Shown here one piece after another: positions 2,936 to 46,383 of a stretch of 47,058 bases of DNA (position 1 is its first letter; each line of letters starts with the position of its first letter). This stretch comes from Candidatus Zipacnadia bacterium (lineage in GTDB: Bacteria; Armatimonadota; Zipacnadia; Zipacnadales; Zipacnadaceae): NCBI GenBank assembly GCA_029821195.1, contig JALGTU010000003.1, positions 1 to 47,058 on the forward strand, in the 5' to 3' direction. The translations under genes were made by a program, and so were the position numbers. The notes beneath the pieces were generated by a model that did not search any database, was not told where the DNA came from, and worked only from the letters and a program-made list of their open reading frames with translations.

Positions 2936-3637
2936 TTACGGCAAGATCCGCTCGGTGCGCAGGCGCGGCCAGAGCTTGGCGATCTGGAAGCCCTCGGCGT
3001 ACTTCACGCCGCACTGCTCTCCCCGGGTGCGGGCAATAATCTCAATGAACTCCGCCACGTCCATATTATCGTGGTCCATCATCCACTGTACCTGGCTCTG
3101 GTGGCATAGCAGCGCCGCGTGCTTCTTCTCGAAAGTGTCGGTGATGTCCACGTACAGCTCGGGGATGAAGTTGGTCGCTGCTACCGTGTCCATATAGAGG
3201 ATCGCGGCGATACCCTCTTGAGAGGCGTGTTCCGTCTCGATATGCGGCACCGTAGACAGGAAGCTCGCCGCAAAGACCAGGTCTGAGGCGGTGCGATGGT
3301 CGGGATGGTAGTCGTCCGGAGAGTGGGTGATGATCACATCGGGATTAGCCCAGCGGATGGCGTCAATCATCAACGTCCGCGTGCGCTTGTCGTGAAAGAG
3401 CCATTCGTCATTCTCCCCGATCATCAGGAACTCCGCCCCGATCGTCTCCGCGGCCTTACGGGCCTCGTTGGTGCGGATCTCGGCCAGCTCGTCAGGCGGA
3501 ATCTCTACGCTGCCCATATTGCCATTGGTGCAGACCACGTTGAAGACCTGGTCGCCCCGCTCGACATACTTAGCCAGCGTCCCCGCGCACAGAAACTCAA
3601 TATCATCGGGATGTGCTCCTACTGCCATTACACGCAT
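2936..3637 (-). CDS. PIG-L/LmbE family zinc deacetylase
   Basis: The 233-aa protein begins MRVMAVGAHPDDIEF, with the AHPDD zinc and catalytic motif of LmbE-like N-acetyl-sugar deacetylases. The second metal motif appears as YHPDHR near residue 120. Known members remove acetyl groups from GlcNAc-containing lipids, mycothiol or bacillithiol precursors, or antibiotics, and the substrate here cannot be told. I chose the ATG at 3637 rather than an in-frame ATG at 3670. The family starts at this point, GAGG lies just upstream, and the longer form would overlap glyA. The gene follows glyA by 19 bases, probably in one transcript. Confidence 0.85.
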   Translation of the reverse strand: MRVMAVGAHPDDIEFLCAGTLAKYVERGDQVFNVVCTNGNMGSVEIPPDELAEIRTNEARKAAETIGAEFLMIGENDEWLFHDKRTRTLMIDAIRWANPDVIITHSPDDYHPDHRTASDLVFAASFLSTVPHIETEHASQEGIAAILYMDTVAATNFIPELYVDITDTFEKKHAALLCHQSQVQWMMDHDNMDVAEFIEIIARTRGEQCGVKYAEGFQIAKLWPRLRTERILP

Positions 3638-3656
3638 TTGCCTCACTGTCCTTTCG

Positions 3657-4904
3657 TCAGAGATCCTCATAGATAGGGAAGGCCTCGCACAGCCCCTGAA
3701 CCTGGCCCCGTACTTCTTCGAGGACCTCCGGGTTATCGCGGCCTTCGTGGATGACTCGGGCTATCCATTGCCCCACCAGCTTCATCTCCGGCTCTTTCAT
3801 TCCCCGGCTGGTCAGGCCGGGCGTGCCGGGCCGGATGCCGCTGGTCTCGGTGGCCGGGGCGGGATCGCCAGGGATAAGGTTCTTGTTGACCACCATGCCG
3901 GCCGCCTCCATCAGATCGGCGGCTTCCCGGCCAGTGATCTGTTTGTTGCGCAGGTCCACCAGCAGCAGGTGGTTGTCCGTGCCGCCGGTGACCAGCGTGA
4001 AGCCCTCTTCCAGCAAAGCCTGGCCCAGAGCCTGGCAGTTGCGGACGATCTGGCGCTGATACTCGCGGAAGCCGAATTCCTGGGCTTCTTTGAAGCAGAC
4101 CGCCTTGGCCGCGATGATCTGCATCAGCGGCCCGGCCTGGATACCGGGAAAGACCGCCCGGTCAATCTGGTCAGCATACTCTTGCTTGCACAGAATGAGT
4201 GCTCCGCGGGGCCCCCGCAGGGTCTTGTGGGTGGTGGAGGTGATCACATCAGCGTAGGGCACGGGCGTCGGATGGGCCTCGGCAGCCACCAGCCCGCTGA
4301 TGTGGGCGATGTCGGCCATCAGGTAAGCGCCCACCTCGTCGGCGATCTCGCGGAACCTCTTGAAATCAATGATGCGCGGGTAGGCGCTGTATCCGGCGAT
4401 GATGAGCCGGGGCCGGACCTCCTTGGCGGCCTCCATTATCATATCGTAGTTGAGCCGATCGGTGTCAGGGTCGAGACCATAGAAATGTGACTCATAGAAC
4501 TGTCCGCTGAAGCTGATGGGCGAGCCATGGGTGAGGTGACCGCCCGTGGCGACGCTCAGCGCCATTATCTTGTCACCGGGCTTGAGCAGCGCGTAGTACG
4601 TGGCCATATTAGCCTGCGAGCCGGTATGGAGCTGGACGTTGGCGTGGTCCGCGCCGAACAATTCCGTGGCCCGGTCAATGGCGAGCTGCTCCAGTTCGTC
4701 GTAGAACTCGCAGCCGTTGTAGAAGCGCTTATATGGATAGCCCTCAGCATACTTGTTGGTGAAGACCGAGCCCATCGCTGCCATCACCGCGCGGCTGGCG
4801 TAGTTCTCCGAGGGGATGAGCATAAGCGTCGTCTTCTGGCGCTCCAGCTCGTCTTGCATGATCCTGTAGACCTGGGCGTCGGCCTGATGCAAACTTCGGT
4901 TCAT
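3657..4904 (-). CDS. glyA: serine hydroxymethyltransferase
   Basis: GlyA interconverts serine and glycine with tetrahydrofolate and methylene-THF, using PLP in the cytoplasm. The 415-aa protein shows LIPSENYAS near the N-terminus, the substrate loop KYAEGYPYKRFYNG, a Gly/His region GGHLTHGSP, and the PLP lysine in TSTTHKTLRGPRG (about K227). The frame stays open to 5009, but the family begins at MNRSLHQADAQVYRIMQ, so the ATG at 4904 is used, preceded by AAAGAAG and GTGAG. The gene is followed closely by the PIG-L deacetylase. Its one-carbon role fits with PurH and the pterin-dependent corrinoid methyltransferase elsewhere in the window. Confidence 0.95.
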   Translation of the reverse strand: MNRSLHQADAQVYRIMQDELERQKTTLMLIPSENYASRAVMAAMGSVFTNKYAEGYPYKRFYNGCEFYDELEQLAIDRATELFGADHANVQLHTGSQANMATYYALLKPGDKIMALSVATGGHLTHGSPISFSGQFYESHFYGLDPDTDRLNYDMIMEAAKEVRPRLIIAGYSAYPRIIDFKRFREIADEVGAYLMADIAHISGLVAAEAHPTPVPYADVITSTTHKTLRGPRGALILCKQEYADQIDRAVFPGIQAGPLMQIIAAKAVCFKEAQEFGFREYQRQIVRNCQALGQALLEEGFTLVTGGTDNHLLLVDLRNKQITGREAADLMEAAGMVVNKNLIPGDPAPATETSGIRPGTPGLTSRGMKEPEMKLVGQWIARVIHEGRDNPEVLEEVRGQVQGLCEAFPIYEDL

Positions 4905-36605: not shown

Positions 36606-37871
36606 TCATACCGACAGCTTGAACGCCTCCACGGGGCTGTCGTGGAGCAGGAACTGGGCGATGCGCAGCGCTTCTTCTTCCGTGTCGTCGCCTCGGACGA
36701 CGCGCTCCGCAAGGACTTCGGCGATGTTACGCCGGGCCTCGTAGAGATGTCCGTAGACCAGCTCCACGTGCCGCACGTCGCCACCGAAGCCGATAATCTT
36801 GTTAGCGGGGACCAGGTCCAGCCAATCGGCCAGAATCTGGCGGGTGCCGGCAGCCGAGATGATATGCACCCAGGCCAGGTCGGCCCAGACGTTGGGGAAA
36901 TACTTGGCCAACACGCCGCACTCCCGGGCGTATGGGTAACCGGCGTGAAACAGGTCAAAGCGCGCTCCCCTGTACTCCAGGAAGAGATTGGTGAGGAGGG
37001 CGGGATTAGTGTTGGCAACGATGTTCTGCCCGCCGGCCTGGAGACCGGTATGGAAGATGATAGTCATATCATTTTCCATCGCCGCCTGGATGCACTTGTG
37101 CAGCATATAGTCCTGCAGCGGCTTAGCCTCCGCCCACGAAAGCCCCTCGCCCAAGTGGTCGAAGATACGGTTGAAGAGCCGCTCGGCCTCCGCATGAGTG
37201 ACCTTGTCATACTGCAGAGCGCGGCGGTAGGCTTGACCGACTTTTAGGGCCACCGCCCCCTCGGCGTGTGCCTGGCTGATATGACCTTGCGCAGCCCTAA
37301 CCAGCTCGTCAATATTGTGGGGGGAACAGTTGGTACTCGCTGATAGCTCTTCGAGTTGCTGTTTGGTGCGGGCCTCGATGAACTGGGTGGCGCGGATGGC
37401 CGGCACGAACAGTTCCCGGTCGCAGTCGAGCTTGCCTGCATCAAGAATTGAGACCGCAATGTTGCAGCGGTCCTTAAGTGCCTGCTTATACCACCCGGGC
37501 TGGTTGGCCTGCCTCATCTTTTCAGTGGCCTCAGCAAGTGCTGCGGCCGACATCTCTTCGCACCCGAACAAGTCTTTGATGGTCCGCGTCCACATCCGTG
37601 CATACGAGCCGTTGCGAATATTGGGCCAGTAAGGCTCCAATAGTTCCCAGCGTGCAGCAATCTCCCCCTTCGGGTCAACAATCTTCTGAGCGATCTCCGG
37701 CGGGCATCCGGCCGTGTGCAGGTCGCCGATTACATAGTTGTCAATCATCTCTAATACATCGGTGTCCTTTTCGACCCGCTCTGCTTCAGGATACAAATGC
37801 TCGTGGGAATCAATTACAGGAATGTCTTCAATCTCGGCAAGAATTTCCACGGTCAGCTCTTTGTTATTCAT
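36606..37871 (-). CDS. amidohydrolase-superfamily metal-dependent hydrolase
   Basis: The 421-aa protein starts with VIDSHEHLYPE, the first metal-binding HxH motif. Later come MTIIFHTGLQAGGQN, FDLFHAGYPYARE and IGFGGDVRHVELVYGH, which place His and Asp ligands at the ends of the barrel strands. The overall pattern recalls the glucuronate-isomerase/amidohydrolase-2 group, but the substrate is not identified. It is cytoplasmic. The gene runs straight into the GH26-like gene and follows the epimerase-like gene, suggesting sugar or sugar-acid metabolism. Confidence 0.82.
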   Translation of the reverse strand: MNNKELTVEILAEIEDIPVIDSHEHLYPEAERVEKDTDVLEMIDNYVIGDLHTAGCPPEIAQKIVDPKGEIAARWELLEPYWPNIRNGSYARMWTRTIKDLFGCEEMSAAALAEATEKMRQANQPGWYKQALKDRCNIAVSILDAGKLDCDRELFVPAIRATQFIEARTKQQLEELSASTNCSPHNIDELVRAAQGHISQAHAEGAVALKVGQAYRRALQYDKVTHAEAERLFNRIFDHLGEGLSWAEAKPLQDYMLHKCIQAAMENDMTIIFHTGLQAGGQNIVANTNPALLTNLFLEYRGARFDLFHAGYPYARECGVLAKYFPNVWADLAWVHIISAAGTRQILADWLDLVPANKIIGFGGDVRHVELVYGHLYEARRNIAEVLAERVVRGDDTEEEALRIAQFLLHDSPVEAFKLSV

Positions 37872-38017: not shown

Positions 38018-38956
38018 TCAGGACTTGAGTAGCTCCATATCGAACATCCACTTCACCCCTCGCTCCATAGCCTCCTCGGGGGTGTATCTCGGATGGTATC
38101 CAAGTCGCGAGGAAATCTTGGAGATATCCGGGCACATGTGCTCAAGGAGATGAAAGTGAGCGCCAAGCTCCGGTGATATCTCTGCGGCGTAGGTCTCTGC
38201 TGACACGTATCTGACAGGTATAGTGGTCTTGTAGATCTCGCCGTAAGTCGCCATGAACCGTTCCGCCGTTAAGGCATACGCCGACCCTACGTTGAAGATC
38301 TCACCAGCAGCGCTCTCTCTGTTTTTCACCGCACAAAAGAATCCCCGCGCTACATCTTCAGCGTCACAAGGACCGATGAGGTTTGTCCCCGGGTAAGGAA
38401 GGGTCACTTCCTCACCACGCTGATGCGCTTGATGCACTTCCAGCGAACGCCCTCCCATGCCGTCAAGCGGGATCTTGCCCGGACCACAGATGTTCGGCGG
38501 CATAACGGCAGTAAAAGCAAGCCCTTCGTTCTTGGATAGCTCAAGGGTTTGCAACAGTTCACTGTAGCGTCGTTGATAGCCCTCGAATGGGCACTCAGTT
38601 TGCGTAACCTCGGGAGTGGGCACGACTTTAGGTCGCCCGAACATCCAAAGCGAGCCACAGGCCACTACGTGAGACACCCCGGCTTCTCGGCTGGCGCTAT
38701 AGACCGCGCCAATGTCACGCTGCAGGATGTCCACCACCACGGCAGGTCTTTCCTCGTTGAGCATAGCAGCAAATGAGCCATCTTGAAGTGATTCCGCATA
38801 TCGCATCGTGATGTACTTGACCTGATTGTAGCAATCCCCTTCCGGGAGGAGGGTTCTGCCGGAGGACATCACCGTAACATCCTCTCCATCCTCGATGAGC
38901 ATACGGGTGAGATTCGTCCCAATGTGACCTGTTCCACCAATGATAAGTGTTTTCAA
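38018..38956 (-). CDS. NAD-dependent epimerase/dehydratase (extended SDR)
   Basis: The 312-aa protein has the Rossmann motif GGTGHIG at residues 7-13. It continues with VVACGSLWMFG and a probable active-site YxxxK replaced by YQRRYSELLQTLE, so the usual catalytic lysine is not obvious. FTAVMPPNICGPGK follows and YPLGTNLIGP-like substrate regions come later (YPGTNLIGPCDAEDVARGF). It probably acts on a nucleotide-sugar or related substrate. The start is TTG at 38956 after GAGAG. No in-frame ATG precedes it. It lies between the corrinoid methyltransferase and amidohydrolase genes. Confidence 0.8.
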   Translation of the reverse strand: MKTLIIGGTGHIGTNLTRMLIEDGEDVTVMSSGRTLLPEGDCYNQVKYITMRYAESLQDGSFAAMLNEERPAVVVDILQRDIGAVYSASREAGVSHVVACGSLWMFGRPKVVPTPEVTQTECPFEGYQRRYSELLQTLELSKNEGLAFTAVMPPNICGPGKIPLDGMGGRSLEVHQAHQRGEEVTLPYPGTNLIGPCDAEDVARGFFCAVKNRESAAGEIFNVGSAYALTAERFMATYGEIYKTTIPVRYVSAETYAAEISPELGAHFHLLEHMCPDISKISSRLGYHPRYTPEEAMERGVKWMFDMELLKS

Positions 38957-39023: not shown

Positions 39024-39827
39024 CTACACATCCAGCCTTCCAGCGCGGCAGGCCTGGATATAGTTCATGCAGAACTCGTCCTGCCCCAGCAGCGCCTCGA
39101 CGGCGATGATATGCGCCATTATCTTCTTGTCCAGTGGGTCCATTACCGCCGAGTCCATCCCCGCCTGCATGGCCAGGCCGAGGAAAGCCCGGTTCATCAG
39201 GCGGCGGTTGGGCAGGCCAAACGAGATATTGCTCAGCCCGGAGGTGATATGACAGTCCGGGCAGTACTGGCGAATAGCCGCGATGGCCTCCAAGATATGC
39301 TGGCCAACTTCGGCCGCAGTGCACAGCGGCGCGATGATTGGGTCCACGAATATCTGCTGCGGCTCAATCCCGCCAGCGGTGAGTCGGTCAATGATTTGTT
39401 GGGCTACCTGTTCGCGTTGTCCGGGCTGGGTGGGCATACCCCCCTCGCCCAGAGCGAGAGCAACTACGTTGACTTTAGCCTCCAACACAATCGGCAGCAT
39501 CTTCTCGACGCTCCCCGGCTCCATTGTCACCGAGTTTATCATTGGCATAGCCGCGCCGGTATAGGTCTCCAGCCCACGCTGGACAGCCTGCGGATTGGGC
39601 GAGTCGAAGCTGATCGGCCTGTCGGTCGCCGCCTGGATAGTCGCCACCAGCCACTGCATATCCTCGGCTTCCTGGTCACCGACCGTGCCGGGATTGCAGT
39701 CAATGAAATCCGCGCCGGCCTCGGCCTGCCTTGTCGCCAGGGCAGCGATATAGTCGGAGTCGCGACTGGCTATCGCCTCTTTCACCTTGCTTCTGGTCCC
39801 GTTGATCAGTTCACCAATGATGATCAC
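39024..39827 (-). CDS. pterin-binding corrinoid methyltransferase (MeTr/MtgA-like)
   Basis: The 267-aa protein is a DHPS-fold TIM barrel. It starts MIIIGELINGTRSKVKEAI, with GADFIDCNPGTVGDQEAEDM, PISFDSPNPQAVQRGLE, PMINSVTMEPGSVEKML, IFVDPIIAPLCT and ITSGLSNISFGLPNRRLMNR. This is the pattern of methyltetrahydrofolate:corrinoid methyltransferases, such as the MeTr of the acetyl-CoA pathway and MtgA. It would move a methyl group between a corrinoid protein and THF in the cytoplasm. No corrinoid carrier protein of the MtxC type is in the window, though the protein at 42250 has a B12-binding domain. Confidence 0.88.
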   Translation of the reverse strand: MIIIGELINGTRSKVKEAIASRDSDYIAALATRQAEAGADFIDCNPGTVGDQEAEDMQWLVATIQAATDRPISFDSPNPQAVQRGLETYTGAAMPMINSVTMEPGSVEKMLPIVLEAKVNVVALALGEGGMPTQPGQREQVAQQIIDRLTAGGIEPQQIFVDPIIAPLCTAAEVGQHILEAIAAIRQYCPDCHITSGLSNISFGLPNRRLMNRAFLGLAMQAGMDSAVMDPLDKKIMAHIIAVEALLGQDEFCMNYIQACRAGRLDV

Positions 39828-39851
39828 GCTACTTGTCTCCTTGAAGGTCGC

Positions 39852-39916
39852 GGTACGACAGGCGTCCCGCCTGTCGGGCTTTTAGTGGCTCGGACCGGCG
39901 AAACGCCTGTCCTACC
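39852..39916. repeat. diverged GACAGGCG-type palindrome
   Basis: Arms GGTACGACAGGCGT (39852-39865) and ACGCCTGTCCTACC (39903-39916) form an imperfect inverted repeat, and GACAGGCG-TCC-CGCCTGTC (39857-39875) makes an inner hairpin. The element fills most of the gap between the panE-like and methyltransferase genes, separating the first four genes of the minus-strand run from the rest. Confidence 0.8.
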
Positions 39917-39929
39917 ATATTCCGTGTTG

Positions 39930-40916
39930 TTATCCATGGCGCAGGGCCAGCCCCTTGACCAGCGCCGTCAGGCACTGGCAAAGTGGCGCTGCGACTCCGT
40001 GCTGCTGGGCTGCCGCGACTACCGCTCCGGTTATGTAATCTATCTCCGTGCGGCGCCCCGCTAGCACGTCCTGGAGCATCGAGGACTGATTGGTCGCCGT
40101 AGCCTGGCAGACCTGCTTGACTTCCTGGCCGGGGGCAAAATTGCCCCACTCAACCCCGGCGACCTGGCCCACCTCGTAGACCTCCTCGGCCACCTCGTCC
40201 AGCAGTTCGCGGAGCACCGGTATCTCGAGCAGCTCGCCGTTGCACCGCCGCGTGAGCGCGGTGAGCGGGTTGATCGCGCAGTTGATGAGCACCTTGCGCC
40301 AGAGCAGCCCGTCTACGTCCTCGGTCACTTGTACGGCCAGACCTGCGCTTTGGAGAAGCTCGGCGACGCGCTGCGCCAGCTCGTGGTTGCCTGCCGGACT
40401 GCCCAGCACAATCTTACCCAGACCCGCCTGGCGGACCCGGCCGTCGCCCAGCAGCGTGGCGCCGCTGGCGGTCGTCCCCGCCAGGACTTGCTCGTCTGGA
40501 AAGTACTTCTGAAGCACCTCGTAGTTGCCCAGGCCGTTTTGCAGCGTCAGAATCGCTGTGTCTTCACTAACCAGCGGCTCAGCATGTTCAGCAGCGGCAG
40601 CCGTGTCGTACGCCTTGGTGAAGATGATGACCAGGTCGGCAGTGCCGAAATCGTCGGGGTTGGCGCTGCACTGTGTCGGCACAGTGTAGGAGCCCTCGGG
40701 TGCTTCGATGATCACACCTTGGTTGCTGATCAGCTTGGCCCGGTCCGGGCGGTGGTCGAGCAGGCCGACCTGGAGATGCGGCATCCGGCCCAGCAATCCG
40801 GCGTGCAGACAGCCCATCGCCCCCGGGCCGACGATGACCACGCGGGGCTTAGCTGGTTGGGGGGATTGAGTGTCGCTGTGAGGGGAAGATAGCATTAGTG
40901 TTGGGTTATAGGTCAT
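39930..40916 (-). CDS. ketopantoate reductase family protein (PanE/ApbA)
   Basis: The 328-aa protein has VVIVGPGAMGCLHAGLLGR (NADPH-binding Rossmann). It continues with ADLVIIFTKAYDT, ILTLQNGLGN, and the C-terminal domain LLWRKVLINCAINPLTALTRRCNGELLE with the catalytic-type Lys. NQSSMLQDVLAGRRTEIDYITG follows. These are PanE hallmarks. Ketopantoate reduction serves CoA synthesis, but paralogues in catabolic clusters reduce other 2-keto acids, and the context here favours that. The ATG overlaps the stop of the HPS/RraA gene by one base (TAATG), so they are translationally coupled. The N-terminal 20 or so residues before KPRVVIVG are unusual. Confidence 0.85.
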   Translation of the reverse strand: MTYNPTLMLSSPHSDTQSPQPAKPRVVIVGPGAMGCLHAGLLGRMPHLQVGLLDHRPDRAKLISNQGVIIEAPEGSYTVPTQCSANPDDFGTADLVIIFTKAYDTAAAAEHAEPLVSEDTAILTLQNGLGNYEVLQKYFPDEQVLAGTTASGATLLGDGRVRQAGLGKIVLGSPAGNHELAQRVAELLQSAGLAVQVTEDVDGLLWRKVLINCAINPLTALTRRCNGELLEIPVLRELLDEVAEEVYEVGQVAGVEWGNFAPGQEVKQVCQATATNQSSMLQDVLAGRRTEIDYITGAVVAAAQQHGVAAPLCQCLTALVKGLALRHG

Positions 40917-42232
40917 TACTCCTTCGTATCAGGAGTATCGCTGCGCTGCTGCTCCCAGCGCTCCAGCTCGACGACCTGGCCCAGCGTGCTGCCGGCGTCA
41001 ATCTCCGCCTTCTCACGGCTCTCGCGCTCGACCACCGCCAGGGCGCGGTTGGCCATCTCCACGGCGCGTTCCTGCGGCACGACCACCACCCCGTCATCAT
41101 CGGCGATGATCCAGTCACCGCTGCGCACGACCGTCTCGCCTATCTTCAGCGGTACGCCGATCATGCCCATACCCTTGGGGTCGCCGGCCGCGGGCCCGAT
41201 AAGCTTCGAGAACGCCGGGAAGTCCAGCTCGCGAATTTCCGCGACGTCCCGGATCGCACCGTTGATGACTACTCCGGCCACGCCCGCCTGGAGAGAGCTC
41301 TTGCTGGCCTCTTCGCCCCAGACGGCGGGGCCTTCGCCCCGGACGTCCACGATCAGGACCTGGCCCGGCTCGGCCTGGTCAATCGCCTCGACGGGTTTGG
41401 CCCAGTCGCCCGGATAGGTCCAGACCGTCAGCGCCGGGCCGACCGCCTTCATGCCCGCAGCGATGCTGGTTATCCCCGGCAGCCAGCCCTTGCGGTGCAT
41501 AGCGTCCGAGACGTTGGCGGCGCTGCACTTGCTGAAGATCTCGCGAAGCTGCTCGACGCCCCCGCGCTTGTACAGGTCGGTTTCAATCGCCTCCCCGGTG
41601 CGCATTGCTTCGAGGATGGTGCGCGTCGCCTCGGCTGCATCGGGAGCCTTGATGATCGCGCCGCCGACAATGACAATGTCCGCGCCGGCCTGGACAGCCC
41701 GCGGCGCGGTTTCCGAATTTATGCCGCCCGCTACCGCTACGGGGATGTCTACTGCCCCGGCGACCTCGCGCAGCACTGCGAGCGGGTCCTCACCGCGCAT
41801 CTGCACGTCAATCGGGCAGTGAACGCCAATGATTGCTGCCCCCAATTCCTGCACCCCGCGCGCCCGTACTGCCGGTTCGGCGACTTCGCAAAGGTCAACC
41901 ATGATCCGCGCGTCATAACGCTGCCCGGCCTCAATACACTCTGCAATCGTCGAGTCAGATGCCGCCCCGAGCACGGTCACGATATTAGCCCCGGCTTGTG
42001 CGGCCATCTCTACTTCGACGCGGCCGGCATCCATCGTCTTCATATCGGCGACCACGGTATGGTCAGGAAATTCGCCGCGCAGCGCCCGCACGGCCTCCAG
42101 GCCTTCGCTCTTTATCAGCGGCGTGCCGGCCTCCACCCACTGCGCGCCCCCGGCCACAGCTTCCTGTGCCGCCCGCAGCGCCTGGCTGAGATTGGCAAAG
42201 TCAAGTGCAACTTGCAGAATCGGCTCTGGCAT
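40916..42232 (-). CDS. hexulose-6-phosphate synthase/RraA-like aldolase fusion
   Basis: The 438-aa protein joins two enzymes. Residues 1-215 are an orotidine-decarboxylase-fold domain (LQVALDFANLSQAL, ADMKTMDAG, GVHCPIDVQ, VAVAGGINSETAP) like 3-hexulose-6-phosphate synthase, which condenses formaldehyde with ribulose 5-phosphate. Residues 230-430 are an RraA-like domain (CSAANVSDAMHRKG, VINGAIRDVAEIRELDFPAF, GDWIIADDDGVVVVP), related to 4-hydroxy-4-methyl-2-oxoglutarate aldolase. Such fusions are known in bacteria and archaea. The frame is open upstream, but the ATG at 42232 gives the family start MPEPILQVALDFA and has AAGAAGAGA upstream. The adjacent stop and start couple it to the panE-like gene. 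Confidence 0.9.
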   Translation of the reverse strand: MPEPILQVALDFANLSQALRAAQEAVAGGAQWVEAGTPLIKSEGLEAVRALRGEFPDHTVVADMKTMDAGRVEVEMAAQAGANIVTVLGAASDSTIAECIEAGQRYDARIMVDLCEVAEPAVRARGVQELGAAIIGVHCPIDVQMRGEDPLAVLREVAGAVDIPVAVAGGINSETAPRAVQAGADIVIVGGAIIKAPDAAEATRTILEAMRTGEAIETDLYKRGGVEQLREIFSKCSAANVSDAMHRKGWLPGITSIAAGMKAVGPALTVWTYPGDWAKPVEAIDQAEPGQVLIVDVRGEGPAVWGEEASKSSLQAGVAGVVINGAIRDVAEIRELDFPAFSKLIGPAAGDPKGMGMIGVPLKIGETVVRSGDWIIADDDGVVVVPQERAVEMANRALAVVERESREKAEIDAGSTLGQVVELERWEQQRSDTPDTKE

Positions 42233-42249
42233 AACAGATCTCTTCTTTC

Positions 42250-43887
42250 TTATGACAGCAGGCTGGCAATCCGTTCCTGTTCCGTCAGAATCTCGCCGCT
42301 TTCCGGGTCCAGCGCGCGGATCGCTCCGTCCACCGGTGCGGTGGCCAGTATGCCGGCGGCATCTGGGTTGCCGCACAGGTGCGGAGCGTCAAGCAGCCCG
42401 AGCTTGATCGCGCGGCTAATGACCCGAGGATCGGTAAGCGGATCCGAGCCGCCGTCCCCCAGCGAGCGTATGGCCTCCAGTAGAAGGTTGGCCTCGGCGA
42501 CCAGTTCTTCCTTCCGCGCCTGGACAATTGGATCGGAAAGCATGTCGGGCATGTCGGTGCGGCAGTTGCGGATTGCGCCGTGGACAATCCGGCAGCTTTC
42601 GATAAGCTCGGGCGCGGTGACGGCGTGATCGCCCTCGGAGAAGCCGACGACATGTACAATGTGGGGTTGAATAGCCAATTGCACGACAGTGCCGGCGGCC
42701 AGTTGCCCCTTGGCGACGTCCATATCCGGGGAGAAGCTGAGCAGACCGGCCCGGGTCTGGCGCAGGGAGGTGAAATTGTCGTCGTGCAGCCCCTCGATGA
42801 GTTCGATCTTCGCCAGCATCTTGGCCAGGTCCATCGCCGGTGACGTGGCTGCGGGACTATTGAACATATACTGGGAGACGTACGTGTGCACGCCCACTGC
42901 TTTGCAGTTGTACGCGCCCAGATAGGCGGCGACCACCGCGATGGTATCGTGGGCGCTGCGCATGCTCCAATGGTGCGCCTCGTTACACTCCACGGGAATG
43001 CCGCGGTCGGCATACCACGCCATCGCTTGCTGGTTCTCGGCGATAGATTGCTGGGGATGACGGTCCGAGCGGCGGTCGAGGGTATTGTACCAGCATAGCG
43101 GGATCGCGCCCCAGGCGTTATTGATAGTCTCGACCGACATCTCCGCCCACTTGATCAGGTCGCGGGTGCCGCTGTAGCAGCGCAGCAGCGGATGGTTGCC
43201 GGTGCGGGTTGCCTGGTATATCGCCTGCAGGTCGTCGGGCGAGCGCAGCGCGACGCCGCCGGCCCCCGATTGCTCCGGCTTCATCTCGTCGGGGCGGAAA
43301 AAGCTGTCCTGCGCGTTCTGGTCGGGGCCGAGCGAGAGCACGTCGAGGACCCCGGCTGCGGCGATCTGGCGTGCTCCCTCGACAGTTACAGCGACTTCGG
43401 GTTGGCCGTAGTGATGGCGCAGCAGGGGATAAGGCTGTTTGTGGGCGAGCCGCGCCAGGAGAGTGTCACCCCACTCCTGCTGCGCGCCTTCGCGGGTTCC
43501 GCCCTGTAGGTAGGCCAAGACCTGCTCAGGACTCTCCCCACCGGTGAACACCTCTTCGAACAGTCCACTACTGCGCGCGACCTCGGCAACCGGTGCCGTT
43601 CCGCCGAAGACAAAGCGGCGCTCGAGCAGAGCACGCTCCGCCAGTGCTTCCTGCAACTGCGCGATCAGCGCCCCGGCAACTTCCGGGGTCAACCGGTAAC
43701 TTACGGCCACCAGTTCGGGGTCGTGCCCGGCAACTGCCTCGGCGAAATCTGCCACGCTCACCGCCGGGCCCAGGAAAACTGTTTTGTATCCAGCGGTGCG
43801 CGCCAGGTTGAGAAAGCTGAGCACGCCCGCGACATGAACGCAGTTGCCCAGCGCTCCGGCGACTACGGTGGGGCTATTGGGGGTCAC
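42250..43887 (-). CDS. cobalamin-binding, mutase-like protein (B12 domain plus glutamate-mutase-E-like barrel)
   Basis: The 545-aa protein opens with a B12-binding-type Rossmann domain (about residues 6-125, VVAGALGNCVHVAG, FLNLARTAGYKTVFLGPAV, DPELVAVSYRLTPEVA). The base-off D-x-H-x-x-G motif appears as CVHVAG with His18 and Gly21 kept but Cys16 in place of Asp. The rest looks like a TIM barrel resembling methylaspartate (glutamate) mutase subunit E, by order of blocks such as PLCWYNTLDRRSDRHP and GAYNCKAVGVHTYVSQYMFN. That similarity is faint. GTG at 43887 is the start because GGAGG is nine bases upstream. The first in-frame GTG at 43896 touches that site. It overlaps the opine-dehydrogenase gene. 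Confidence 0.72.
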   Translation of the reverse strand: MTPNSPTVVAGALGNCVHVAGVLSFLNLARTAGYKTVFLGPAVSVADFAEAVAGHDPELVAVSYRLTPEVAGALIAQLQEALAERALLERRFVFGGTAPVAEVARSSGLFEEVFTGGESPEQVLAYLQGGTREGAQQEWGDTLLARLAHKQPYPLLRHHYGQPEVAVTVEGARQIAAAGVLDVLSLGPDQNAQDSFFRPDEMKPEQSGAGGVALRSPDDLQAIYQATRTGNHPLLRCYSGTRDLIKWAEMSVETINNAWGAIPLCWYNTLDRRSDRHPQQSIAENQQAMAWYADRGIPVECNEAHHWSMRSAHDTIAVVAAYLGAYNCKAVGVHTYVSQYMFNSPAATSPAMDLAKMLAKIELIEGLHDDNFTSLRQTRAGLLSFSPDMDVAKGQLAAGTVVQLAIQPHIVHVVGFSEGDHAVTAPELIESCRIVHGAIRNCRTDMPDMLSDPIVQARKEELVAEANLLLEAIRSLGDGGSDPLTDPRVISRAIKLGLLDAPHLCGNPDAAGILATAPVDGAIRALDPESGEILTEQERIASLLS

Positions 43888-44998
43888 CCGGATCACCCTC
43901 CATCACCAGGCGCTGAATCTGGCGAATCGTCAGCCCCTTGATGCCCAGCTTCTCCACTGTCCGGCCACCCGCACACAAGTCCCGGCCCACCAGGCAGGAG
44001 GCCAGATGGGCTACCGCACCCATTGTCGGGGTCGCCACGCCCAGCATCTCGCCCAATGAGATCATCGGCATCAGGCCGGTGGGAACGTCTTCGAGGATGT
44101 AGCGGTGCGAGACTATCGCCGGGGCCATAATGCCGCTGTAGCCGGGATTGGCGGCTATGGCCTCGTAGAGATTGTCGCCGGCGGCACTGTAGGCGATGAA
44201 CAGCCAGTTTTTGGCTGACATCACGCCCACGCCCAGGGCGTCGCCGAGCCGGACGCGTTCTCGATCCATCTCCTCCAGCACGTCCGCCACCGACGGCGTG
44301 ATGCCCTGGAGATAGTACTGAAAGTCGCCGTGGGTATCTTCCACGCGTCCGGCGTTCATCACCATCACCGTGGGGTGGAAGATCACGCCCACATTGTTGA
44401 GGCTGGTCTTCAGGACATTGTCACCGGGCACAAACTGGGGATAGGCCACGCGCAGCGCTTTGACTACCTCGTTAGTGCGATAGCTGGGAATGGCCGCCAC
44501 CGGCACGCTGTTCTTGACCGAGAAGATGCGCACCTGCGCCGGCTGGGTCGCCCGGCTGGCGTATATGAACGTCTGGGCTTCGGCGATCAACACGTCCGCC
44601 GTACAGCCCCTCTCCAGGATGATATGCCGGAATTCCAGTGCGCCACCGGTGCGGCCGGGATTCAGTACCACGATCTGCCCGTCGCGCAAGTGAGGGGCGC
44701 ACACCTCCGCGATGAAGGCGTGGCCCGTGGCCGGGAGGACCACCATCACTATATCAGCGCCGTCCAGCGCTTCGCCCGCATCAGTGGTTACCACCGCTAT
44801 TGGGCCCTCGCCCTTCTCGACATCGTCCAGACCGGGGCTGAGTAGCTCGATATTGCCCCTTTCCATTATCGGCACAAGTCTTTCGTCGGACCGGTTGTAG
44901 AGGTTGACTTCAAACCCCTTGAGTGCCAGGTGAGCAGCCATGGCCGTCCCGCCATGCCCGGCACCCATCACGCAAAAACGAGGCTTATCCTGGTTCAT
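43874..44998 (-). CDS. opine dehydrogenase family protein (NAD/NADP octopine/nopaline type)
   Basis: The 374-aa protein starts FCVMGAGHGGTAMAAHLALKG, the NAD-binding site. IVMVVLPATGHAFIAEVCAPHL and VLNPGRTGGALEF follow, typical of octopine/nopaline dehydrogenases, which join or split an amino acid and a keto acid reductively. The C-terminal domain has HPTVMVMNAGRVEDTHGDFQYYLQG. It heads the catabolic-looking minus-strand operon, with AAGGAGG before the ATG and an extended -10 promoter. Its stop overlaps the start of the B12-binding gene. Which amino and keto acids it uses is unknown. Confidence 0.87.
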   Translation of the reverse strand: MNQDKPRFCVMGAGHGGTAMAAHLALKGFEVNLYNRSDERLVPIMERGNIELLSPGLDDVEKGEGPIAVVTTDAGEALDGADIVMVVLPATGHAFIAEVCAPHLRDGQIVVLNPGRTGGALEFRHIILERGCTADVLIAEAQTFIYASRATQPAQVRIFSVKNSVPVAAIPSYRTNEVVKALRVAYPQFVPGDNVLKTSLNNVGVIFHPTVMVMNAGRVEDTHGDFQYYLQGITPSVADVLEEMDRERVRLGDALGVGVMSAKNWLFIAYSAAGDNLYEAIAANPGYSGIMAPAIVSHRYILEDVPTGLMPMISLGEMLGVATPTMGAVAHLASCLVGRDLCAGGRTVEKLGIKGLTIRQIQRLVMEGDPGDPQ

Positions 44999-45029: not shown

Positions 45030-45225
45030 GGTAGTGCAGTGAAGCGACAGGTCGCGGGCGGGTAATGCCCCGGAGCGGAGTACGACTGAACTGCTGGCGT
45101 TACCGCAACTACCTGTAATGATACCGGCTCAGGTGGCTGCTGTCAACGTAACGGTATGCTTCGGGAGGATAAATGACCCGCGCGCACGAAATACTATGCT
45201 CCGATCTATGGAAGGGGGCAACTAT

Positions 45226-46383
45226 ATGAATTCCACGAAGCGCTTCCAACTCGTGCCGATGCCTGAGGTAGTCTTCGGCACCGGCACAATCGCCCAGGTG
45301 GGCGAGAGGACTGCGCAGCTCGGCAGTAAGGCGCTGCTGGTCACCGGGCGCGGTTCGCTGCGCCAGTCCGGGTGGCTGGACCGAATCGTCGGCGATCTTG
45401 TCGAGCACGGTGTAGCCGTGACCGTCTTTGAGGGTGTTGAGCCCGAGCCGTCCCTGGCCACTGTCGAGCGGGGCCGGGAGATGCTGCGCGAGGCGGGCTG
45501 CGATGTGGTGCTCGCCGTGGGCGGGGGGAGCAGCCTCGACGTGGGCAAGGCAATCGGGGCGCTGGCTAATGCGCCCGGCACGGTGGCCGATTACCACCAG
45601 GGCCGCGAGATCACCGAGACCGGCCTTCCGATCATCGCCGCGCCGACCACCTCAGGAACCGGTACCGAGGTCACGCCCAACGCCGTGCTCAGCGACCACG
45701 AGCGCGGCGTCAAGGCGAGCATCCGCGGCGACGGTATCATCCCGAAGGTGGCGATCGTAGACCCCCAACTCACGCTGACCGCCCCGCCCGCCGCTACCGC
45801 ATACAGCGGTATGGATGCCTTCGTCCAGGCGCTGGAGGCCTACACATCTACGGGCGCCAATCTCGTCACCGATGGGCTGGCTGCCGCCGCACTCGTACAC
45901 ATTGGCGGGTCCCTGCGCACCGCCTATCACGACGGCTCGGACCTGTGCGCGCGGGAGCACGTGAGCCTGGGCAGCCTGCTGGCGGGGATGGCTTTTGCCA
46001 GCTCGCGGTTGGGGCTGGTCCACGGCCTGGCCCACCCGGTCGGAGCAGCAACCGGCGAGCCGCACGGGCGCGTCTGTGGGTTGCTGCTGGCGCATGTCAT
46101 CGAGTTCAATATGGTCGCCGCCTGTGAAAAGTACGCCCAGGCCGCGCGGATGCTGGATATCACCGCCGATCCCGATGACGAGGTCGCCGCCTGGCAGCTT
46201 CACCGGTGGGTAGTTGAGTTGGTCGAGGAGCTCCAGATTGGCACGACACTGTCGGAACTGGGCGTTACCGAGGCCGACCTGGCCGCGATGATCGAGCCTA
46301 CCATCTCTTCCAGCTCGAGCCAGCACAATCCGCGCGAAGTGACCGAGCCGGATTTGTGGGACTTCCTGCGGCGGATGCTGTAA
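45226..46383 (+). CDS. iron-containing (group III) alcohol dehydrogenase
   Basis: The 385-aa protein starts LVPMPEVVFGTGTIAQVGE. It has VVLAVGGGSSLDVGKAIGAL (NAD binding), APTTSGTGTEVTPNAV, a metal-binding Asp in YSGMDAFVQALEAY and His ligands in LGLVHGLAHPVGAATGEPHG. These are the hallmarks of iron-dependent alcohol dehydrogenases. Substrates of the family range from ethanol to 1,3-propanediol, lactaldehyde and methanol, and none is indicated. The open frame runs back to 45118, but ATG at 45226 has GGAAGGGGG about seven bases upstream. It faces away from the opine-dehydrogenase operon across a gap with that operon's promoter. Confidence 0.9.
   Translation: MNSTKRFQLVPMPEVVFGTGTIAQVGERTAQLGSKALLVTGRGSLRQSGWLDRIVGDLVEHGVAVTVFEGVEPEPSLATVERGREMLREAGCDVVLAVGGGSSLDVGKAIGALANAPGTVADYHQGREITETGLPIIAAPTTSGTGTEVTPNAVLSDHERGVKASIRGDGIIPKVAIVDPQLTLTAPPAATAYSGMDAFVQALEAYTSTGANLVTDGLAAAALVHIGGSLRTAYHDGSDLCAREHVSLGSLLAGMAFASSRLGLVHGLAHPVGAATGEPHGRVCGLLLAHVIEFNMVAACEKYAQAARMLDITADPDDEVAAWQLHRWVVELVEELQIGTTLSELGVTEADLAAMIEPTISSSSSQHNPREVTEPDLWDFLRRML

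Follow-up and report, generated by a model that had tools for sequence, protein, structure and literature searches.

The window analysed here, a stretch of 47,058 nucleotides from a Candidatus Zipacnadia bacterium (Armatimonadota), contains a tightly packed row of five genes for an opine dehydrogenase (ODH), a B12-binding protein, a hexulose-6-phosphate synthase/RraA-like (HPS/RraA) fusion, a PanE-like reductase and a methyltransferase-like protein (MeTr). There are few AdoCbl-dependent mutases, and every one of them has defined a metabolic pathway. We asked which of these genes belong together functionally, and what they might do. The initial annotation had read all five as one catabolic operon, an interpretation that as a whole we found to be partly supported, although a single catabolic pathway employing all five is not supported.

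Gene content and layout of the locus

The five genes lie where they had originally been placed, all on the minus strand (Table 1). The ODH and B12 protein genes overlap by 23 bp, and the HPS/RraA fusion starts at the ATG at 42232, 17 bp past the B12 stop codon; we preferred this start to the one at 42376 given by the ORF caller, which is too early. The HPS/RraA and PanE-like genes overlap by 1 bp, and 102 bp separate the PanE-like gene from MeTr. A repeat had been noted in this gap, and it proved to be a perfect copy of a dispersed, palindrome-like 21-bp element, the 17-bp core of which has 90 matches genome-wide (at most one mismatch, both strands counted), whereas the reversed control pattern had none in the same genome search. 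The proposal of one strong promoter for the first four genes is plausible in that a site upstream of ODH gives an 11/12 promoter match, but promoter-like sites are not enriched in the region (4 found, against a mean of 2.5 in shuffled sequence). A cobalamin riboswitch is present within the window. The same-strand row of genes also runs on beyond MeTr, with an epimerase, a UxaC-like gene and a GH26 gene.

Table 1. Features of the locus and the basis of their assignment.
Feature	Position	Strand	Basis or remark
Opine dehydrogenase (CENDH/ArODH-like)	43874..44998	-	PF02317; 1bg6 profile match; residues in 104 homologues
Predicted fused AdoCbl mutase, glutamate-mutase superfamily	42250..43896	-	PF02310 only; AF2, Foldseek, hhalign
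Hexulose-6-phosphate synthase/RraA-like aldolase fusion, bifunctional	40916..42232	-	TIGR03128, PF03737, motifs
Ketopantoate reductase PanE/ApbA	39930..40916	-	TIGR00745; sole ApbA_C match in genome
Methyltetrahydrofolate:corrinoid methyltransferase-like (MeTr/AcsE-like) protein	39024..39827	-	PRK07535, PF00809
Dispersed palindromic repeat copy CGACAGGCGTCCCGCCTGTCG	39856..39876	.	Genome-wide pattern search
Promoter-like site TTGACA-17-TATCAT	45118..45146	-	Upstream of ODH
NAD-dependent epimerase/dehydratase-like gene	38018..38956	-	Continues the row; also in G004, 93% identical
Glucuronate-isomerase-like amidohydrolase	36606..37871	-	Without Pfam family; conserved in genus
Iron-containing alcohol dehydrogenase, divergent	45226..46383	+	Conserved in genus

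Conservation of the gene order had been suggested as a check on the operon, and in the family to which the organism belongs (Armatimonadota, 'Candidatus Zipacnadia'-like) it is borne out: the five genes co-occur in the same order on one contig in relatives G003, G004, G005, G006 and G014, and across contig breaks in G008 and G011.

The HPS domain scores 211.6 bits against TIGR03128 (cut-off 200) and the RraA part 145.8 bits against PF03737; the fusion carries the catalytic DxKxxD motif (as DMKTMD) and an RD motif, and HxlB, the isomerase partner of HPS, is encoded elsewhere in the genome (contig C119, 208.4 bits, cut-off 160). PanE scores 296.6 bits against TIGR00745 (cut-off 141) and, since the window's genome (G000) encodes no other ketopantoate reductase, probably serves CoA synthesis; a housekeeping enzyme is the simplest reading. 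MeTr reaches 322 bits against PRK07535 (cut-off 259) and matches PF00809.

An opine dehydrogenase and a B12 protein recur as a pair

Outside close relatives we did not find all five genes together; only ODH and the B12 protein, for which we argue below a mutase function, recur across phyla. In at least 75 of 80 loci ODH directly precedes the mutase gene and shares its strand; 2 loci are clear exceptions, and the paired loci come from about ten phyla, archaea included. Of 101 related genomes, 40 have both genes and the other 61 have neither, so that no relative bears the mutase without ODH; in one of the 40 the two are on different contigs. The paired ODH is usually the only PF02317 gene of its genome. 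A divergent form of the mutase (group 2, about 32% identical) adjoins ODH in 7 of 7 loci, and in one genome collection at least 581 matches to the mutase family were confirmed. No copies of the pair were found on plasmids, and when neighbouring genes were clustered, no third gene was seen to accompany the pair repeatedly outside the family. We judge it somewhat more probable than otherwise that ODH and mutase make up a functional module of two genes, which does not need the others.

One distant family of the phylum (G053) again has HPS/RraA and MeTr, together with a PanE-like fragment; with that exception they are not beside the pair outside the organism's own family. They are mostly local, family-level neighbours which, like the genes beyond them, are specific to the lineage and probably co-transcribed.

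These observations bear directly on the catabolic proposal, according to which an opine or unusual amino acid is imported or degraded, ODH acts oxidatively, and the mutase, HPS/RraA, PanE and MeTr process the fragments. The tight, co-directional packing and the divergent iron-containing alcohol dehydrogenase and cupin, conserved in the genus, are in keeping with it, as is the position of HPS/RraA behind the B12 gene in the distant family as well. We nonetheless consider it improbable: the pair stands alone outside the family, and in other phyla no transporter or catabolic gene recurs beside it; PanE is most simply a housekeeping enzyme, the HPS domain has its isomerase partner at another site in the genome, MeTr follows a dispersed repeat, and ODH has an NADPH signature (below). 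The statement that no described pathway combines these functions did hold in our searches of the open-access literature, which returned nothing linking ODH to a B12 mutase, or the HPS-RraA fusion to these genes.

The B12 protein has a glutamate mutase-like barrel

The B12 protein consists of an N-terminal B12-binding domain (residues ~1-130), in which the cobalt-ligand His21 and Gly24 are invariant, and a C-terminal TIM barrel (~145-548). Only PF02310 was matched in a Pfam search, and a single-sequence PDB search found the B12 domain alone, so that recognition of the barrel needed structure comparison. The AlphaFold (AF2) model (pLDDT 91.4) has GlmE as its best PDB fold match in Foldseek (E 5.3e-16), followed by OAM, LAM and MCM. 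Alignment with GlmE by hhalign is colinear (E 8e-6 to 9.5e-5), and GlmE E330 aligns near the invariant E421. Going by its modelled fold, the protein adds a new, fused and previously unnamed member to the glutamate-mutase superfamily. The window's genome encodes a CobA-type adenosyltransferase, and a genome search for the PduO type found none.

Two features could point away from a mutase and towards a protein that has the mutase fold but acts as a B12-dependent sensor, a carrier or a subunit of a methyltransferase: the Asp of the DxHxxG motif is Cys in 104 of 106 group 1 sequences, and in this family a MeTr-like gene lies nearby. Such a role seems to us most unlikely, given that the GlmE-like barrel is complete, is modelled with high confidence and has about 30 near-invariant polar residues; that group 2 retains these residues and has DxHxxG intact; and that MeTr is no neighbour outside the family. 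The group 2 model is of low confidence (pLDDT 70), although GlmE again tops its fold matches.

The mutase does not appear to be an ordinary glutamate mutase. Pfam Met_asp_mut_E has no match in the window protein or the window's genome, and the few relatives with a match score 26.7-30.6 bits (cut-off 26.6). The arginine claw of GlmE (R66, R100 and R149; PMC10947579) is not conserved: R66 corresponds to H162 and R149 to Y241, and R100 has no Arg counterpart, a mapping that is uncertain at the ~15-20% identity of these proteins. Free glutamate may therefore not be the substrate. The loss of the claw also speaks against the classical methylaspartate route, in which glutamate mutase would feed 3-methylaspartate ammonia-lyase and ODH would be an accessory. 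Superfamily and fold are indeed those of GlmE, but we regard this route as very unlikely, since nearly all relatives with the pair, like the window's genome, have no ammonia-lyase (strong matches only in G016, G032, G034 and G036, and G032 is without the pair), since ODH is always present where the mutase is among the 101 relatives, and since no MutL-like gene recurs among the clustered neighbours of the pair.

PLP-dependent aminomutase chemistry is likewise not indicated. Lys629 in the cobalamin Rossmann domain binds PLP in an aminomutase (PMC4256349), and no Lys in residues 1-150 of our protein is more than 55% conserved.

The dehydrogenase carries signatures for acidic substrates and NADPH

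ODH scores 160.5 bits against PF02317 (Octopine_DH, cut-off 30), and the closest solved structure is 1bg6, which the family profile matches over its full length with 387.6 bits. The His208-Asp304 dyad, Arg299 and Trp265 are all present in the window's enzyme; H208, R299 and W265 are found in 104 of 104 homologues, and D304 in 103. According to published mutagenesis, Arg at ArODH position 111 together with Gly at 198 switches the substrate from Phe to Asp and selects L-Asp/L-Glu; in the same report, Arg at 35 marks the use of NADPH (PMC10787698). The first of these residues (R116 here) is present in all 104 homologues, the second (G204) in 91, with Ala in the remaining 13, and the third (R36) in 102. 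As a control, 14 ODHs without a mutase have none of the acidic-substrate or NADPH residues.

On these signatures the window's ODH most likely acts on acidic L-amino acids with NADPH as its cofactor, and they favour reductive opine formation over the opine breakdown that had been suggested. The hot-spring enzymes of that report have a low kcat/KM on L-Asp (0.04-1.5 per s per mM; PMC10787698), which leaves room for a natural amine other than Asp.

A proposed two-enzyme pathway

We lean towards the view that the NADPH opine dehydrogenase and the carbon-skeleton mutase work in one short pathway. Judged from the sequences, the pair would most likely use pyruvate, NADPH and Glu or Asp (or 3-methylaspartate) to make or rearrange an acidic amino acid bearing an N-(1-carboxyethyl) group. 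In the mutase, AdoCbl would be held base-off/His-on through His21, and homolysis of the Co-C bond would yield a 5'-deoxyadenosyl radical to start, within the barrel, the 1,2-rearrangement of a carbon skeleton resembling that of Glu. ODH would condense the acidic amine with pyruvate and reduce the imine with NADPH to give the N-(1-carboxyethyl) amino acid. The pathway would probably end in N-[(R)-1-carboxyethyl]-3-methyl-L-aspartate or the Glu isomer (C8H13NO6). Pairing and co-occurrence of the genes, the folds and the conservation of catalytic and specificity residues are observations; which acidic substrate is used, the exact product, the order and direction of the steps and the physiological role we infer. 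Hypotheses built on beta-alanine and PanD, with an amine shift on the opine, were dropped as having no plausible PLP-free mechanism.

The same end product would result whether the mutase precedes or follows the dehydrogenase. If ODH acts first, Glu (or Asp) and pyruvate would give an opine, and this opine, not the free amino acid, would be the mutase substrate. Replacement of the glutamate-clamping residues of GlmE by H162, Y241 and Gln/Asn would suit such an order, and other invariant Arg, His and Gln residues (R160, R239, R276, R313, R382, H308 and H415 among them) could hold a larger tricarboxylate; the ODH gene leads the pair, and the published enzymes take L-Asp and L-Glu directly (PMC10787698). 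The residue mapping is, however, uncertain at this level of identity and gene order is weak evidence on reaction order, and we consider dehydrogenase-first a possible but rather unlikely sequence of events.

More tentatively, and with somewhat less than even confidence, we propose that the pair represents a widespread, undescribed pathway that joins AdoCbl radical rearrangement to opine chemistry and by which many anaerobic and thermophilic bacteria and archaea would make a rearranged N-(1-carboxyethyl) amino acid, starting from pyruvate, glutamate and NADPH. If true, this would add a new metabolite class and a new B12-dependent reaction. A new mutase family that is present in hundreds of genomes and strictly partnered with ODH is a directly testable lead to an unknown metabolite, and the substrate class, readable from ODH residues, can guide the search for it. 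The pairing also offers a physiological context for metagenomic ODHs (mODHs) already in use as biocatalysts.

Comparison with known systems

The mutase most resembles GlmES (EC 5.4.99.1; PDB 1cb7, 6h9e), with which it shares the TIM-barrel fold, a colinear sequence profile, a distinct B12 Rossmann domain with the cobalt-ligand His, an E330-like Glu421 and the C-terminal LDxP region. It differs in that the B12 domain, separate in GlmES, is fused N-terminally, that the claw is not conserved, and that an opine dehydrogenase takes the place of methylaspartate ammonia-lyase as partner; identity is 15%. The next-best fold matches, ornithine 4,5-aminomutase and lysine 5,6-aminomutase, likewise combine AdoCbl with a TIM barrel, but the conserved PLP Lys is missing from the B12 domain here and the domain order is reversed relative to OraE.

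For ODH, the closest characterised enzyme is N-(1-D-carboxyethyl)-L-norvaline dehydrogenase (CENDH/ArODH) of Arthrobacter sp. 1C (1bg6), which is homologous over the full length and shares GxGxxG, the His-Asp dyad, Arg and Trp. The window's enzyme differs in its acidic signature (R for A111, G for N198), its NADPH signature and the strict link to a B12 mutase gene. The hot-spring enzymes mODH-45/47/48/49/55/582 were studied as lone biocatalysts, and the portions of that report drawn on here mention neither a B12 partner nor a physiological role (PMC10787698). They use NADPH, are about 40% identical to ArODH and have an R110/G198-type signature with the 88-residue spacing seen in most of the paired-ODH family (PMC10787698). 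By signatures, identity to ArODH and R-to-G spacing, as far as that report describes them, they probably belong to the same family as the paired ODH.

Gene order and its conservation

The five co-directional genes of the initial annotation encode an opine dehydrogenase (ODH), a fused AdoCbl mutase-like protein (B12 protein), a hexulose-6-phosphate synthase/RraA-like fusion (HPS/RraA), a ketopantoate reductase-like protein (PanE) and a corrinoid methyltransferase-like protein (MeTr), and all were located on the minus strand. The ODH gene extends 23 bp into the B12 gene; HPS/RraA starts 17 bp beyond the B12 stop and overlaps PanE by 1 bp; and the 102-bp gap before MeTr holds the repeat that had been noted there, a copy of a dispersed palindrome whose core has 90 hits genome-wide (both strands counted), with 0 hits for a reversed control pattern in the same genome. 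The strong promoter proposed for the row is plausible, but a consensus scan did no better than chance. Beyond MeTr the row continues with epimerase-like, UxaC-like and GH26 genes, and on the other flank lie divergent iron alcohol dehydrogenase and cupin genes. The UxaC-like (glucuronate-isomerase-like) protein has no Pfam match, and its place next to a GH26-like gene is conserved in the genus.

Coordinates of the features discussed
Feature	Location	Strand	Detail
Five-gene row	44998-39024	-	
ODH	44998-43874	-	
B12 gene	43896-42250	-	
HPS/RraA start	42232	-	ATG
Palindrome copies	39856-39876; also 5127, 22536, 28932		core ACAGGCGTCCCGCCTGT or ACAGGCGTCTCGCCTGT
Glucuronate-isomerase-like gene	36606-37871	-	
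Cobalamin riboswitch, then prepilin-like gene and ABC operon	14986-10238	-	riboswitch 100.5 bits; prepilin-like gene N_methyl, DUF1559
Second ODH, locus L180 (G073:C382)	3409-4527	+	LNPGITCGA, SAFAP

The five-gene order recurs in other genomes of the family, on single contigs in G003, G004, G005, G006 and G014 and across contig breaks in G008 and G011; in G004 an extra gene with a weak copper-amine-oxidase-N1-type domain follows the B12 gene. Beyond the family only ODH and the B12 gene stay together, and clustering of neighbours there found no other widely recurring neighbour of the B12 gene. In one distant family (G053) the mutase likewise has HPS/RraA, a PanE-like fragment and MeTr nearby. 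Because of this recurrence and the conserved placement within the family, a functional tie of these three genes to the pair is possible, though nothing demands one. The HPS domain scores above its curated cut-off and has the DxKxxD motif, and an isomerase is encoded as a separate gene at another site in the genome; the RraA half carries the aldolase RD motif; PanE is the sole ketopantoate reductase-like gene of this 95%-complete genome; and MeTr is above its domain cut-off. The genes described initially are present, and their interpretation as one five-gene B12-dependent catabolic pathway finds partial support and is best narrowed to the ODH-mutase pair, which is more widespread and more tightly constrained than could then be known.

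The dehydrogenase and its partner

Among the matches listed, 80 mutase loci from a GTDB-based collection included Bacillota, Bacteroidota, Ignavibacteriota, Aminicenantes, Planctomycetota, Chloroflexota, Gemmatimonadota and several archaea. ODH lies directly upstream in 73 of the 80 by a strict rule and in 75 by inspection; three are cut off at the contig start, and the only clear exceptions are L101 and L102 (Bacillota). Strong matches to ODH and to the B12 protein fall in an identical set of 40 of 101 related genomes. This co-occurrence is more than linkage, since the two genes are on separate contigs in G071 and on opposite strands in G058 and G084. The distances of the two proteins correlate (r = 0.70 in the main mutase group, Mantel p = 0.001), as expected from joint travel, and also from shared species history. 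We did not find the pair in the open-access literature searched.

The ODH family profile matches CENDH/ArODH (1bg6) over its full length at 387.6 bits. A set of characterised hot-spring opine dehydrogenases favours L-Asp, L-Glu and sulfonate analogues as partners of pyruvate, in most cases with NADPH; double mutants showed that Arg at ArODH 111 and Gly at 198 set the acidic preference, and Arg at 35 was proposed as an NADPH marker (Telek et al., PMC10787698). The window equivalents are R116 (kept in 104/104 mutase partners), G204 (91/104) and R36 (102/104). Fourteen more distant ODHs of the same phylum, with no adjoining mutase, have Ser/Gly/gap, Asn or Thr, and Leu/Trp/Ile/Phe at those positions, and Met/Ala/Val in place of the active-site Trp. 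Because the signature is kept in the partners and absent from these 14, the mutase-linked ODHs, judged by sequence, very probably act as opine synthases that use NADPH and an acidic amine. A second ODH in L180 lacks the catalytic His and an R116 equivalent, and is possibly a degenerate or repurposed copy.

The mutase and a proposed pathway

AdoCbl supply is plausible, because the genome encodes a CobA adenosyltransferase and the window has a cobalamin riboswitch close to an ABC transporter of the FecCD/periplasmic-binding-protein kind. Between this riboswitch and the periplasmic-binding-protein/FecCD/ATPase operon, directly ahead of the latter, is a prepilin-like gene, and the operon includes a diphthamide-synthase-like gene; a pilin-like protein within a B12-uptake operon would be unusual.

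Pfam recognizes only the N-terminal B12-binding domain of the B12 protein. Its AlphaFold model (34 homologues) is a confident two-domain structure (pLDDT 91.4), for which Foldseek ranked glutamate mutase epsilon first (E 5.3e-16), followed by ornithine and lysine aminomutases and methylmalonyl-CoA mutase. Profile alignment with real GlmE sequences was colinear through the barrel, with an E value of 9.5e-5 when 34 sequences were used and 8e-6 when 113 were. The B12 motif has an invariant His21 and Gly24, and its Asp is replaced by Cys in group 1, the main form, which includes the window protein. A longer, divergent group 2 (L059-L065, ~32% identical) has the standard DxHxxG and an adjoining ODH in every case; one genome (G031, locus L064) carries both groups with two paired ODHs.

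Both enzymes point to an acidic, glutamate-like amine, and the pair gives precise biochemical predictions. The most economical model would be a single short reductive pathway, in which AdoCbl radical chemistry would rearrange a glutamate-type skeleton and ODH would N-carboxyethylate with pyruvate and NADPH; should the rearrangement be of the glutamate mutase type, either step order would yield N-(1-carboxyethyl)-3-methylaspartate. Were the mutase to act first, the true amine of ODH would be a branched aspartate, which would fit the poor published kinetics with L-Asp. Were the dehydrogenase first, the mutase substrate would be the opine, which would rather fit an altered substrate clamp. GlmE holds glutamate with an arginine claw of R66, R100 and R149 (PMC10947579); in the B12 protein, R66 corresponds to His162, R100 to no Arg and R149 to Tyr241. 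Ornithine aminomutase binds PLP through a Lys in its B12 domain (PMC4256349), and the B12-protein alignment has no conserved Lys of this type there. Given the fold and profile matches, together with the missing claw and Lys, the B12 protein is a glutamate-mutase homologue best labelled neither glutamate mutase nor PLP aminomutase, and on sequence and model it is predicted probably to work similarly to glutamate mutase.
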